From positions 22,265 to 58,688 of the forward strand of contig MFUG01000003.1 of assembly GCA_001785615.1 (NCBI GenBank): a stretch of 36,424 bases of DNA, given 5' to 3'. Of this stretch, positions 8,519-25,580 are shown one piece after another. A program made the position numbers and the translations under genes. The DNA comes from Candidatus Nomurabacteria bacterium RIFCSPHIGHO2_02_FULL_42_19. GTDB taxonomy: Bacteria > Patescibacteriota > Minisyncoccia > Phycocordibacterales > UBA9973. The notes beneath the pieces were generated by a model. That model was not told where the DNA came from. It worked only from the letters and a program-made list of their open reading frames with translations, and did not search any database. Within the stretch, counting starts at the first letter, position 1. Each line of letters begins with the position of its first letter.

Positions 8519-9136
8519 ATGGATTCGATAGAAAAATTGACTGAAATTTTTAAAGAATTTCCCGGCATTGGCGAACGGCAAGCCAGACGCTTCGTCTATT
8601 TCTTGATGGGCAGGAATGGAGGATATGTTGGAAACCTTTCTCAATTAATCACGGACTTGAAAAAAGAAACAGCACAGTGCAAAGAGTGTTTCCGGTTTTT
8701 CAATCTACGCTATAGCGTAGATAAAAAAAACTTATGCGAAATATGCGCTGACAAAAATACTGATCCGGCCCTACTGATGGTGGTAGAGAAGGATTCTGAT
8801 TTTGAGAGTGTAAAGAAAAGCCGGGTGTATCAGGGAAAATATTTTATTCTAGGCGGACTGGTGCCGATAGTGGAAAAAACTACCAAAAGCCGGGTGCGTA
8901 TTGAAGAATTAAAAGCGAAAGTAAAAAACAGTAAGGGATTAAAAGAAATAATTCTTGCCTTTTCCCTAAACCCACAAGGCGACCATACGGACCAATACGT
9001 TCGCGAACAAATAAAAGATATCGCCGAAAAATTCAGCATCAAAATTTCCTCTCTCGGCCGCGGCCTTTCCACCGGCACCGAACTTGAATATTCAGACAAT
9101 GACACTCTCCGAAATGCGTTAAAAAATAGACAATAG
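8519..9136 (+). CDS. recR: Recombination protein
   Basis: FPGIGERQARRFVYFL, CxxC zinc finger, Toprim-like VVEKDSD. Confidence 0.93.
   Translation: MDSIEKLTEIFKEFPGIGERQARRFVYFLMGRNGGYVGNLSQLITDLKKETAQCKECFRFFNLRYSVDKKNLCEICADKNTDPALLMVVEKDSDFESVKKSRVYQGKYFILGGLVPIVEKTTKSRVRIEELKAKVKNSKGLKEIILAFSLNPQGDHTDQYVREQIKDIAEKFSIKISSLGRGLSTGTELEYSDNDTLRNALKNRQ
8703..8722. repeat. ATCTACGCTATAGCGTAGAT palindrome inside recR
   Basis: 20-bp perfect palindrome identical to 22590-22609. Confidence 0.8.
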
Positions 9137-9166
9137 AAATACACAGGCGTTGCCTGTGTATTTCTA
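9134..9166. repeat. REP-like hairpin upstream of the RAYT
   Basis: 15-bp perfect stem TAGAAATACACAGGC / GCCTGTGTATTTCTA with GTT loop. Confidence 0.85.
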
Positions 9167-9183
9167 TATGGTATACTTTAGAT

Positions 9184-9816
9184 ATGTCTTTAAGGAAACA
9201 ATCTTTTGCTGTTGGTGAATTTTATCACTTATATAATCGTGGTACTGAAAAACGAAAAATATTTTCAGATAGGCGGGATTACAATTATCTTCTGTTTTTA
9301 ATGTATATCTGTAATACAAAGAAAAGTATTAAATTAAGAGATGTAAGTAAAAAATTTGATCGCGAAGAAACCATAGTCAATATTGGCGCATACTGTCTAA
9401 TGCCAAACCATTTTCATATACTTATTCACGAAAAAATAGAAGGTGGTATCTCTAAATATATGCTTAAATTAATGACTGGTTATTCAATGTATTTTAATAA
9501 AAAATATAAACGTACTGGAAAATTATATGAGGGCGTATTTAAATCCACTCACCTAAGCACAGATAGATATTTAAAATATATTTACTCTTATATTCATCTT
9601 AATCCCGCTAAACTAATAAGTAAAAACTGGAGAGAAAATAAAAACAGAAATACTGTAAATTTATTAAATTACGTTTTTTCTTATCCATATTCAAGCTTAA
9701 AAGAATATTTAGAAGAAAAATTTAGGGTTATAAATTCTACGCCATTTCCAACTTATTTCAAAAAACCTATGGACCACAAAAGAGAACTTTTTGAATGGCT
9801 TAATTATGAGGGTTAG
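9184..9816 (+). mobile_element. REP-associated tyrosine transposase (RAYT, Y1/IS200-like)
   Basis: FYHLYNRGTEKRKIF, YCLMPNHFHILI (HxH), YIYSYIHLNPAK; flanked by matching hairpins. Confidence 0.93.
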
Positions 9817-9823
9817 GAAATAC

Positions 9824-9850
9824 ATATACATAGGCGTTGCCTGTGTATAT
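9824..9850. repeat. REP-like hairpin downstream of the RAYT
   Basis: 12-bp stem around the same GGC-GTT-GCC tip as 9134-9166. Confidence 0.8.
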
Positions 9851-10353
9851 TACTTAGTAACGTAAAATTCTAAATCTTGAGTTAATTTAAAAACTAAATT
9901 TTTTGGCTCGGAGTCTGGATAATTATTTAAAAAGTCCCGAATCCAAAGAATGTATTGATTATTGTAAGGTTTCTTTGAGTTAGCTTTTCTCATCTCAATA
10001 AAGCTTCTTAAGTGATCTGTAAAATCAGCCAATTTAATTATTTTAGCTTCTTGGGAAATGGTCTTTAGCTTTTTATAATATTCTGTTTTCTGCTGTTCGT
10101 TGTAATTTTTAGGATGAGAAACTTCAACCACTAAATCTGCAACAGTTTTGGAGAAATTTTGCTCCAATTCTTCATAAGTTGTATCTGTGTCTTCTAAGGT
10201 ATCATGTAAAATAGCCGCAGTCAGAACCTCCAGGTCATCAACATGAAATTCATTTTGCAAAACTGCAAGCACGTTCAAAAAGTGATTTTTTATATTTGCT
10301 ACTTCAAACTTTTTAGTTGAGAATTTTATAGCTAAATCAAGTTGACTAACCAT
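9850..10353 (-). CDS. HD-domain phosphohydrolase (MESH1/SpoT-HD-like)
   Basis: AAILHDTLEDTDTTYEEL and IIKLADFTDHL motifs. Confidence 0.82.
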   Translation of the reverse strand: MVSQLDLAIKFSTKKFEVANIKNHFLNVLAVLQNEFHVDDLEVLTAAILHDTLEDTDTTYEELEQNFSKTVADLVVEVSHPKNYNEQQKTEYYKKLKTISQEAKIIKLADFTDHLRSFIEMRKANSKKPYNNQYILWIRDFLNNYPDSEPKNLVFKLTQDLEFYVTK

Positions 10354-14559: not shown

Positions 14560-15678
14560 TTAGATTCCTTCTTTTTTGAGTTCCTCTATGGTTTCGCGGG
14601 CTTTGCGAGAAATTTTACTTGGAAGTTTTATATTTAGTTTAATAAGCAAATCCCCTCTTTTGGTTTTAGAAGTCGGCACGCCTTTCCCGCGCACCCGCAG
14701 TATCTCATTCATGGCGACCCCCTCGGGAATGGTCACTTCGATTGGACCATCCAAGGTTTCTATGGGGTACTTGGTGCCAAGAAGCGCATCCGAGAGTTTC
14801 AAATTCAAATTCATCACTAGGTCGTTACCGTCGCGCTTGAAGATGGCGTGCGGTGTTACGTTTATCTTTATGTAGAGATCGCCCGGAGTCCCTTTGGAAA
14901 TCGCTTCACCCATGCCTGACATCCGAATCATCTCTCCATCGCGAATCCCAACGGGAATAACGATAGAAATTTCCTCTTCCCGACGGAGCACTCCTTTGCC
15001 TTTGCATTTTTCGCAGAGTTCTTTCGGTGCTTCCCCCGCACCGTGACATTCTTCACAAACTTTAGTGCTAGAAATTGCTCCAAGGAAGGACCTCTTCGTC
15101 TCGCGAATTGTACCCTGCCCATTACAACGTTTGCAGGTTACCATGGTGAAACCAGCTTTCGCACCAGTGCCATTACAAGTCAAACAGTTAGATGTCTTGG
15201 TAATTAAAATTTTTCTATTCAAGCCGAAAATAGCATCAAGAAAGGAAATGGTAATTTCGGTAGAGATATCCCGTCCTCGGCGTGCTTGGGTCCGCCCTCC
15301 CCCCATTCCGCCAGTAAAAAAATCGCTAAAGATATCGTTTAAATTACCAAAATCAAAATTTATATTACCGTCTGCCTGTCCGCCTCTGGCGGAAAATCCG
15401 TCAGTAAAATTAGAAAAGTCAAAACCCTCAAAGCCGCTTGCGCTCTGTCCTCCATATCCGCCCATATTCTCATAAGTAGACCCGAATTGGTCATATTTTG
15501 AGCGCTTGCCGTCATCCGAGAGCACTTGATAGGCCTCGTTCACTTCCTTGAACCTCGTTTCATTGCCCTCCTTTTTATCAGGGTGATATTTGTGCGCCAG
15601 CTTATAAAAGGCCTTCTTTATTTCGTCCTTGGAAGCGCCTTTATTTACTCCTAATATATTGTAATAATCTTTTGACAT
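14560..15678 (-). CDS. dnaJ: Molecular chaperone DnaJ
   Basis: KDYYNILGVNKGASKDEIKKAFYKLAHKYHPDK, four CxxCxGxG-type motifs. Confidence 0.97.
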   Translation of the reverse strand: MSKDYYNILGVNKGASKDEIKKAFYKLAHKYHPDKKEGNETRFKEVNEAYQVLSDDGKRSKYDQFGSTYENMGGYGGQSASGFEGFDFSNFTDGFSARGGQADGNINFDFGNLNDIFSDFFTGGMGGGRTQARRGRDISTEITISFLDAIFGLNRKILITKTSNCLTCNGTGAKAGFTMVTCKRCNGQGTIRETKRSFLGAISSTKVCEECHGAGEAPKELCEKCKGKGVLRREEEISIVIPVGIRDGEMIRMSGMGEAISKGTPGDLYIKINVTPHAIFKRDGNDLVMNLNLKLSDALLGTKYPIETLDGPIEVTIPEGVAMNEILRVRGKGVPTSKTKRGDLLIKLNIKLPSKISRKARETIEELKKEGI

Positions 15679-15685
15679 AAATTAA

Positions 15686-15793
15686 AGGAATAGAATATTG
15701 TTATTTACGGGTCTTTCGCAGGGCGACGGCCCGAGAATGAGCAAATTTTCAGCAGAAAATTATGCGACCCGGAAATAATTGTATTCTATTCCT
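15686..15793 (+). repeat. Structured hairpin element upstream of dnaJ (copy 1)
   Basis: 28-bp imperfect arms 15686-15713 / 15766-15793 enclosing core gcagggcgacggcccgagaatgagcaaattttcagcagaaaattatgcg. Confidence 0.85.
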
Positions 15794-23432: not shown

Positions 23433-25349
23433 TTATGCCTTTGGTGCTTCGCCTTCGTTTTTTGGTTTCTCTTTGAATTCCGCGTCTTTGGGTTCTTGCC
23501 CTGAGCTTGTCGAAGGGTTGTCCTGCCCGCCTCCTGCGGATTCGGGTGAACTCTTTTGAATCGCCTCTCCTATTTTAGACATTTCGGTAGAAAGTTCTTC
23601 AGTCGCTTTCTTGATTGCTTCCACATCTGTACCGTCTTTTACCCCACGAAGAGCAGTTATTTTCATATTTACCGTATCTTTCAATTCTTGAGGAATTTTT
23701 GCTTCATTATCTTTTATTGCTTTCTCGGCAGTGTAAATTATCATCTCTCCAGTATTGCGCACATCCGCACTTTCCTTTTTCTTTTTATCTTCCTCTGCAT
23801 GAAGTTCCGCGTCCGCCTGCATCTTTTTAATTTCATCTTCTTTCAGGCCAGAACTTGCTTCTATTTTTATTGACTGCGTTTTGCCAGAGGTCTTATCCTT
23901 CGCGGTCACATTTAAGATTCCATTCGCATCCACATCAAAGGAAACTTCGATTTGCGGCATACCGCGAGGGGCGGGAGGAACACCGTCCAGAATAAATCTA
24001 CCCAGGGATTTATTGTCAGAGGCCATCGGGCGCTCGCCTTGAACTATGTGAATCTCCACCGAGGTTTGATTGTCTGCCGCGGTTGAGAATACTTGGGATT
24101 TGTGTGAAGGAATGGTTGTATTTCTTTCAATAAGCTTGGTGCCCACTCCACCGAGCGTTTCAATGCCAAGTGATAGGGGGATAACATCTAAAAGTAAAAC
24201 ATCGCGCACGTCGCCCTGGAGCACTCCTGCCTGCACTGCGGCGCCGAGAGCCACCACTTCATCCGGATTGATGGAAAGGTTCGGGGTTTTGCCGAAGATC
24301 TTTTTCACTTCTTCCACAATCTTGGGCATTCTTGTCTGCCCGCCCACCATGATGATTTCATTCATGTCTTCAATCTTGAATCCGGAGGCACTCATCGCGC
24401 GCTTGGTGATCTCGACCGAGCGAGAAACATATTCGTCCGCAATTGATTCCAGTTGGGCGCGAGTCATTTTAAGTAGCAAGTGTTGGGGGCCTTGTGCGGT
24501 AGAAGTAATGAAAGGAATATTTATTTCTGTTTCAACTGCGGTAGAGAGTTCAATCTTCGCTTTTTCCGCCGCTTCGTCTAGGCGCTGGAGTGCCAGCTTG
24601 TCAGTACGTACATCCACTCCAGAGGTCTTTTTAAATTCTTCCGCGATCCAGCCGATAATCTTGTGGTCAATGTCGCGGCCTCCTAGGTGGCTGTCCCCAT
24701 CGGTGGACTTCACTTCTATAACGTCGTCCCCTATTTCAAGTACCGATACGTCGAAAGTTCCGCCTCCGAAGTCGTAGACGACTATTTTTTCATTTTTCTT
24801 TTTATTAAATCCGTAAGCAAGCGCCGCCGCGGTGGGCTCGTTGATAATACGCTTTACATCGAGGCCGGCAATCTGCCCTGCATCCTTCGTTGCCTTTCTT
24901 TGCGCATCGTTGAAATACGCCGGCACAGTGATGACTGCTTCAGTAATCTTAACTCCGAGCTTCGCTTCCACGTCGGATTTTATTTTTGACAGAATCATGG
25001 CGGACACTTCTTCCGGACGCATCCATTTTTCTCCAATCTTCACTTCCACTCCGCCCGTAGCTCCCTTCTGAATTTTGAAAGATGCATTCTTCAAGTCCTT
25101 CTGCACTTCTGGATCGTCAAAGTTGTGGCCCATAAAACGCTTGATGCCGTAAACAGTGTTTTCTGGGTTGGTGACTGCCTGACGCTTGGCAAGGAGCCCT
25201 ACTAGTCGGTCGCCATTTTTAGCAACGGCTACCACTGAAGGTGTAGTTCTATTACCCTCCACATTTTCAATAATTTTCGGCTGTCCACCCTCTATAACTG
25301 CCACTGCCGAATTTGTTGTACCTAAGTCAATTCCTATAATTTTTGCCAT
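23433..25349 (-). CDS. dnaK: Molecular chaperone DnaK
   Basis: [45 protein letters not shown]-terminal [10 protein letters not shown] from repeat. Confidence 0.98.
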
Positions 25350-25382: not shown

Positions 25383-25497
25383 AATGAAATAAATTAGTTG
25401 TTTGGAAAAGCCATACGTAGGCCGACGGGCCGAAGTCCTGAGCAAATTTTCAGCAGAAAATTATGCGTGCTTTTCCAAACAACTAATTTATTTTATT
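25383..25497 (+). repeat. Structured hairpin element upstream of dnaK (copy 2)
   Basis: 29-bp arms (one G-T pair) 25383-25411 / 25469-25497 enclosing a core sharing gagcaaattttcagcagaaaattatgcg with copy 1. Confidence 0.88.
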
Positions 25498-25580
25498 ATA
25501 TACCAAGTCAATTATTTTTGCAAGTTTTTCGTGGTCGCGAACTACTTGTCAAAAGGTAATATATATTATAATATAGGGGT

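Follow-up and report, generated by a model that had tools for sequence, protein, structure and literature searches.

A hairpin upstream of dnaK in a Patescibacteria genome is probably a copy of a dispersed palindromic element with self-paired, site-specific arms

The window analysed here, the whole stretch of 36,424 nucleotides from a Candidatus Nomurabacteria genome, carries dnaJ and dnaK on its minus strand, and upstream of each gene lies a palindromic element. The element at dnaK is antisense to that gene and is placed between the dnaK upstream region and the start codon. The features to which we refer below are the following:

23433..25349, minus strand: dnaK (HSP70), host neighbour
25383..25497, plus strand: whole palindromic element on the dnaK side (covariance model R1, 61.3 bits, E=1.6e-14)
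25383..25411, plus strand: 5' arm of the dnaK element (outermost P1), of site-specific sequence, pairing with 25469-25497
25412..25467, plus strand: conserved core of the dnaK element, with bounds from covariance model R1
25420..25431, plus strand: P2 hairpin of the dnaK element, GGCC-GACG-GGCC, with a conserved GACG loop and a conserved A ... GA on its flanks
25442..25466, plus strand: P3 hairpin of the dnaK element, GCAAATTTTC-AGCA-GAAAATTATGC, with a conserved AGCA loop and a bulged A25463
25469..25497, plus strand: 3' arm of the dnaK element, the reverse complement of the 5' arm
14560..15678, minus strand: dnaJ, host neighbour
15686..15793, plus strand: second copy, upstream of dnaJ, subtype B (80.3 bits with model R1; core 15713-15766)

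The 29-bp inverted repeat that a preliminary description had recognised at dnaK is real, its arms (25383-25411 and 25469-25497) forming 28 Watson-Crick pairs and one G.T (G25386.T25494). The dnaJ copy has the same architecture, and it had been correctly described as having arms unrelated in sequence to those at dnaK and a flipped third pair in P2 (GGCC-GACG-GGCC at dnaK, GGGC-GACG-GCCC at dnaJ); the dnaK and dnaJ copies are of different subtypes. The positions given for the wobble pairs in both copies were also accurate, the transition-type mismatches in the dnaJ arms being 15698:15781 (T.G) and 15700:15779 (G.T) on the plus strand, and these arms hold in addition T.T and A.G mismatches that had not been listed. 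Folded as RNA, the dnaK element reaches -51.8 kcal/mol (z = -9.7 against shuffled sequence) and as plus-strand DNA -35.8 (z = -11.0), and RNA folding of the dnaJ copy gave z = -7.5 against shuffled sequence. A search of the locus against Rfam returned no family match, the hits being weak miRNA-hairpin look-alikes far below the gathering score; a twister-sister ribozyme, which the P2 motif had suggested, likewise had no Rfam match.

Patescibacteria form a large lineage in which genomes are very small, and further genomic copies, which the preliminary description had proposed to count, do exist in them. Using the covariance model we found 15 in the genome of origin (614 kb, 18 contigs) and between 1 and 43 in every one of the 60 sampled genomes of the genus, and in a sample of the phylum copies were present in 31 of 294 genomes, representing 24 of 251 genera. 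The exact P3 core was found in at least 116 stretches in a scan of species genomes, and among the matches listed the titles that name a lineage were those of Patescibacteria (Nomurabacteria, Kaiserbacteria, Zambryskibacteria, Taylorbacteria, Adlerbacteria, Vogelbacteria, Liptonbacteria, Wildermuthbacteria and others), some further matches listed being titled merely 'bacterium' or 'uncultured bacterium'. A match in a metagenome-assembled genome titled Burkholderiales (L354, JAMPXW010000005.1) has the same position as one on contig C5 of genus member G028, so that the title is probably a mislabelling. The exact core was absent from 2.9 million viral contigs. Our open-access literature search found no report of such elements in CPR/Patescibacteria, which is not proof that none has been published, and the palindromic family is apparently undescribed so far.

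Each unit comprises a core of about 55 nt within inverted arms of about 15-30 nt, roughly 100-120 letters in total, and in the core P2 (GACG loop) and P3 (AGCA loop, bulged A) join at a three-way junction. This structure is conserved through compensatory changes among the further copies. In an alignment of 29 cores (A2), from which alone the covariance model was built, 95.3% of cells are paired under the drawn structure, double-sided changes occur at 15 of 17 pairs, and the covariation score of 0.621 drops to 0.199 on shuffling and to no more than 0.111 with partners slid. For the 91 distinct cores the corresponding values are 98.6% paired, 16 of 17 pairs changed on both sides, and a score of 0.688 (0.205 shuffled, at most 0.114 slid), in an alignment that was fitted to the model and therefore leans toward the model's structure. 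The stems vary while GACG, AGCA, A...GA and the bulged A, which are loop and internal-loop bases, stay mostly constant, and the entire P3 stem can be replaced with its loop kept, as in GCTCCGCG-AGCA-CGCGGAG. The core pairs are nearly all Watson-Crick, and the scarcity of wobble intermediates among them favours templated change.

The 178 unique copies analysed come mostly from the genus, and about 100 of them lie inside open frames resembling conserved genes, whose products, identified by eye from conserved motifs, include TsaD, UvrD, Fmt, IleS, Tgt, MnmA, RecG and peptide deformylase. Orientation relative to the host genes is mixed, with insertions in coding sequence on both strands. In the GC subtype all 26 sense copies are in phase 0 and 28 of the 29 antisense copies in phase 1, although alternative frames are open in 28-45 of 57 copies. 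Between anchors in uvrD there are 13-16 residues in uninterrupted genes (10 genomes; one 11) and typically 45 in interrupted ones, and in fmt mostly 15-19 as against 39-42 amino acids, which amounts to net gains of about 87-96 nt in uvrD and about 72 nt in fmt. The genomes compared are different species, with proteins often 60-80% identical, and at this distance they reveal neither exact empty sites nor target duplications. Since the frame is kept, with one frame for each orientation, the in-gene inserts appear from their sequences to be tolerated as an extra loop peptide, and peptides like VSQADGPRGSAPRARGDSDP or SLSPRARGALPLGSSACETP in Patescibacteria proteomes are likely to be element insertions and not domains.

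The wobble pairs of the two copies had been said to be G-U on the plus strand, where the minus strand would have A-C, and this preference extends to the further copies as a strong bias, not as an absolute rule. In 114 copies with unrelated arms, the transition-type mismatches on the plus strand comprise 104 G.U and 29 A.C, or 72:16 once copies sharing any 11-mer of arm are removed (P = 1e-9), and a second set drawn from other families on named contigs gave 32:13 (P = 0.007); the bias is absent from the subfamily with conserved, AAACTCGTCGCAGGCGTACTTTTTAGAAAGC-like arms (30:27). By context the ratio is 41:6 for copies antisense in coding sequence, 37:9 for non-coding copies and 26:14 for sense copies. 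Host mRNA structure is not supported as the source, given that antisense copies show the strongest bias, and because sense and antisense copies lean the same way, transcription-linked mutation is not supported as the cause either. The same lean in both orientations therefore points to a role of the plus-strand fold for the element, whether in ssDNA or in an RNA of the element's own, in support of the form proposed in the preliminary description. This asymmetry favours selection on one strand, and template switching alone does not predict it.

The most interesting property of the element is that its arms co-evolve. The inner ~15 nt follow the consensus of the subtype, the sequence further out being mostly free, and in genome G071 two copies (L190 and L191) have a common core, similar inner ~15 nt and unrelated outer arms that are each self-paired. 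In 138 of 178 copies self-pairing lies above the 99th percentile of a control in which arms were combined across copies, in a set whose copies and orthologues lack statistical independence. The pairing of free arms has its most frequent endpoint, reached in 48 of 114 copies, at 29-31 nt from the core; with several of these copies orthologous, this is not a measured arm length. Eight tsaD copies occupying one position give a gap-free alignment of 120 columns; among these orthologues 20 of 30 arm pairs vary, 11 of them including compensatory double changes. Because orthologous tsaD copies carry such paired double changes, the arms co-evolve after insertion, and they are rewritten in situ while staying paired. 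At the dnaK site, the arms are bulged in the G065 and G077 orthologues and nearly perfect in the genome of origin. Template switching is known to create and maintain hairpins (PMC8794818) and to homogenise the arms of inverted repeats in coding DNA (PMC8604942). It is not fully separable here from selection on pairing, which could yield the same arm pattern.

The element also appears to behave as a mobile insertion, one of the two options previously raised for its presence at two heat-shock genes, as judged from cores that recur at unrelated sites and from filled and empty orthologues. In genome G154 near-identical cores occupy unrelated sites, and family f86 (G154 and G351) is a more classical MITE-like form, with near-identical copies that share their arms, are bounded by AGCGAGG ... 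CCGAGCG and have unrelated outer flanks. Terminal inverted repeats are mostly not shared among copies; they are shared in the conserved-arm subfamily and in family f86. The suggested association with the Y1 transposase did not hold, as 16 of 60 genomes in which no Y1 was detectable still have 2-23 copies. Across the 60 genus genomes the rank correlation between Y1 and copy number was 0.13 (P = 0.33), and 30 Y1 loci held no element where ~1.5 were expected by density. Nor was any transposase or autonomous partner found in this search, the scope of which was Y1 transposases. The Y1 gene of the window (9184-9816) is flanked by its own unrelated palindrome, ACACAGGCGTTGCCTGTGT, and not by a dnaK-type element; the palindromes at 9136-9168 and 9817-9852, with ACACAGGCGTTGCCTGTGT / ATAGGCGTTGCCTGTGTAT, are probably the recognition hairpins of this transposase.

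We also observed a distant subtype whose arms frequently resemble GGATTCGA/TGACCGAATCC. At each of the following loci it shares its strand with an adjacent tRNA or tmRNA gene: L434, L436, L438, L439, L441-L443, L445, L446, L010, L011, L017, L215/L024, L241. In several of them (L434, L436, L438 and L215) the core is followed by a second tRNA 3' end. Near the distant copies the Rfam matches were only to tRNA and tmRNA genes. A speculative option, to which we give about one chance in five, is that the element is a protein-free mobile structure that spreads by way of a folded plus-strand RNA or ssDNA intermediate, possibly linked to tRNA or tmRNA transcripts, with arms rewritten by templated copying once inserted; if true, this would add a new way in which elements move and protein loops arise in tiny genomes.

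Somewhat less probable still is that the host retains the element at particular genes as a functional structured RNA or a cis-regulatory signal, for example in heat shock or mRNA stability. The RNA-like covariation with conserved loops, the plus-strand wobble bias and the position of the distant subtype on the strand of nearby tRNA or tmRNA genes (ARAGORN) are compatible with it. However, orientation to the host genes is mixed, coding sequence on either strand included, the wobble bias peaks where the plus strand is not mRNA, and the host sites are unrelated genes. Heat-shock regulation in particular, the other option raised initially, is not supported as a general role: the element was found upstream of dnaJ in none of 29 relatives and, by the model, upstream of dnaK in 2 of 29 (in G007, L523, a possible diverged remnant at dnaK was seen by eye only), and the neighbours of further copies, proposed earlier as a check, include many unrelated genes and are not confined to heat-shock genes. 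The element would enter the leader of dnaK and might conceivably affect the regulation of this gene, and presence in every genus genome could also fit some host function. Upstream of dnaK we noted a further inverted repeat, CAAGTTTTTCGTGGTCGCGAACTACTTG (25521-25548), of which relatives keep CAAGTATTTCGTGACCACGAAATACTTG beside TTGACA/TATAAT-like boxes; on its letters it is possibly a heat-shock operator unlike CIRCE.

The origin of the paired arms could be considered in two other ways. Insertion might itself duplicate the target flank in inverted form, a new transposition signature after which the arms stay fixed. This would be consistent with the unrelated outer arms of copies with the same core, and with the fmt plus copies, in which the 3' arm encodes the conserved host residues (P)DL(F), with the 5' arm inversely complementary to it; we consider it unlikely, at roughly one chance in ten, as the net gains in uvrD and fmt are too small for a core and an entire new arm, and the arms co-evolve in orthologues. 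Least plausible of all is that insertion hits pre-existing inverted repeats (hairpin loops), which would give paired arms with no later change, since, although core-less tsaD alleles sometimes have plain hairpins (L069 has arms similar to those of the filled L054) and the distant subtype has tRNA T-arm-like arms (GGATTCGA/TCGAATCC), orthologous arms change in pairs following insertion and uninterrupted sites barely stand out in inverted-repeat content from the remainder of the gene (mean percentile within the own gene 0.58 in uvrD, 0.48 in fmt and 0.67 in tsaD, five sequences).

The dnaK hairpin is thus probably, with roughly two chances in three by our estimate, a copy of a non-autonomous palindromic (MITE/RPE-like) element of Patescibacteria, the arms of which are kept paired by template switching, by selection or by both. 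We hypothesise that such an element would move as a folded plus strand, either ssDNA or RNA, recognised by some enzyme, and that this recognition would keep the loops constant and lead that strand to carry G-U in preference to A-C. Once the element is in place, template switching during replication at the quasi-palindrome could copy one arm into the other, giving rise to long, nearly perfect, site-specific arms, with selection purging disruptive versions. The dnaK copy would then be an insertion that the genome of origin shares with two related species and in which it has since been perfected.

Among known systems, the Rickettsia palindromic elements (RPE), nearly half of which lie in frame within genes, are also dispersed, hairpin-forming repeats of about 100-150 bp, found between genes and in frame in conserved protein genes; they too have no known transposase, and they have also been reported in RNA genes (PMC2229807, PMC10969869). 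The element described here likewise has a preferred frame in conserved protein genes. It belongs to an unrelated phylum, the likeness noted here being one of features, and it differs in its covarying three-way-junction core, fixed loops, free but paired arms and plus-strand wobble bias. REP sequences (the RAYT-associated GTAG class and the CGTC-tagged class) are likewise small palindromes with intragenic copies, including in UvrD-type helicases, and the CGTC class has no dedicated transposase (PMC3733652). However, REPs are hairpins of 20-40 bp with a terminal GTAG or CGTC tag, whereas the present element has two hairpins in long arms and, unlike the REP/RAYT system, is not associated with a Y1/RAYT gene (0 in 30 Y1 loci). 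The coding palindromes of nematomorph mitochondria and repeats maintained by template switching resemble it in their long, near-perfect inverted repeats in translated genes and in arm homogenisation (PMC6649704, PMC8604942, PMC8794818), but they form no dispersed family with a conserved core.

On this analysis the element would best be filed as a protein-coding palindromic element, in an apparently undescribed form, which would extend such elements to Patescibacteria, where they are common in essential genes. Its orthologous copies are a natural record of paired arm change inside coding DNA, and template switching and compensatory selection are therefore directly testable against each other.

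Other repeats were seen at some of the same sites. In the genome of origin, the tsaD and mnmA loci (L003 and L005) carry a different second in-frame repeat, with the peptide FAQSLGPSLRSATPSQKH. The tsaD loop of relatives also holds other hairpin families, of the IPLLRGG type in L043, L059 and L063, and plain perfect hairpins in L042, L067 and L069. The tsaD alleles L054 (G015) and L069 (G010) have similar arms with and without the core (AGGACCTTGCTTTTG... and AGGACTTTGCT-TTTAC-AGCAAAGTCCT, respectively), a candidate case of core gain or loss.
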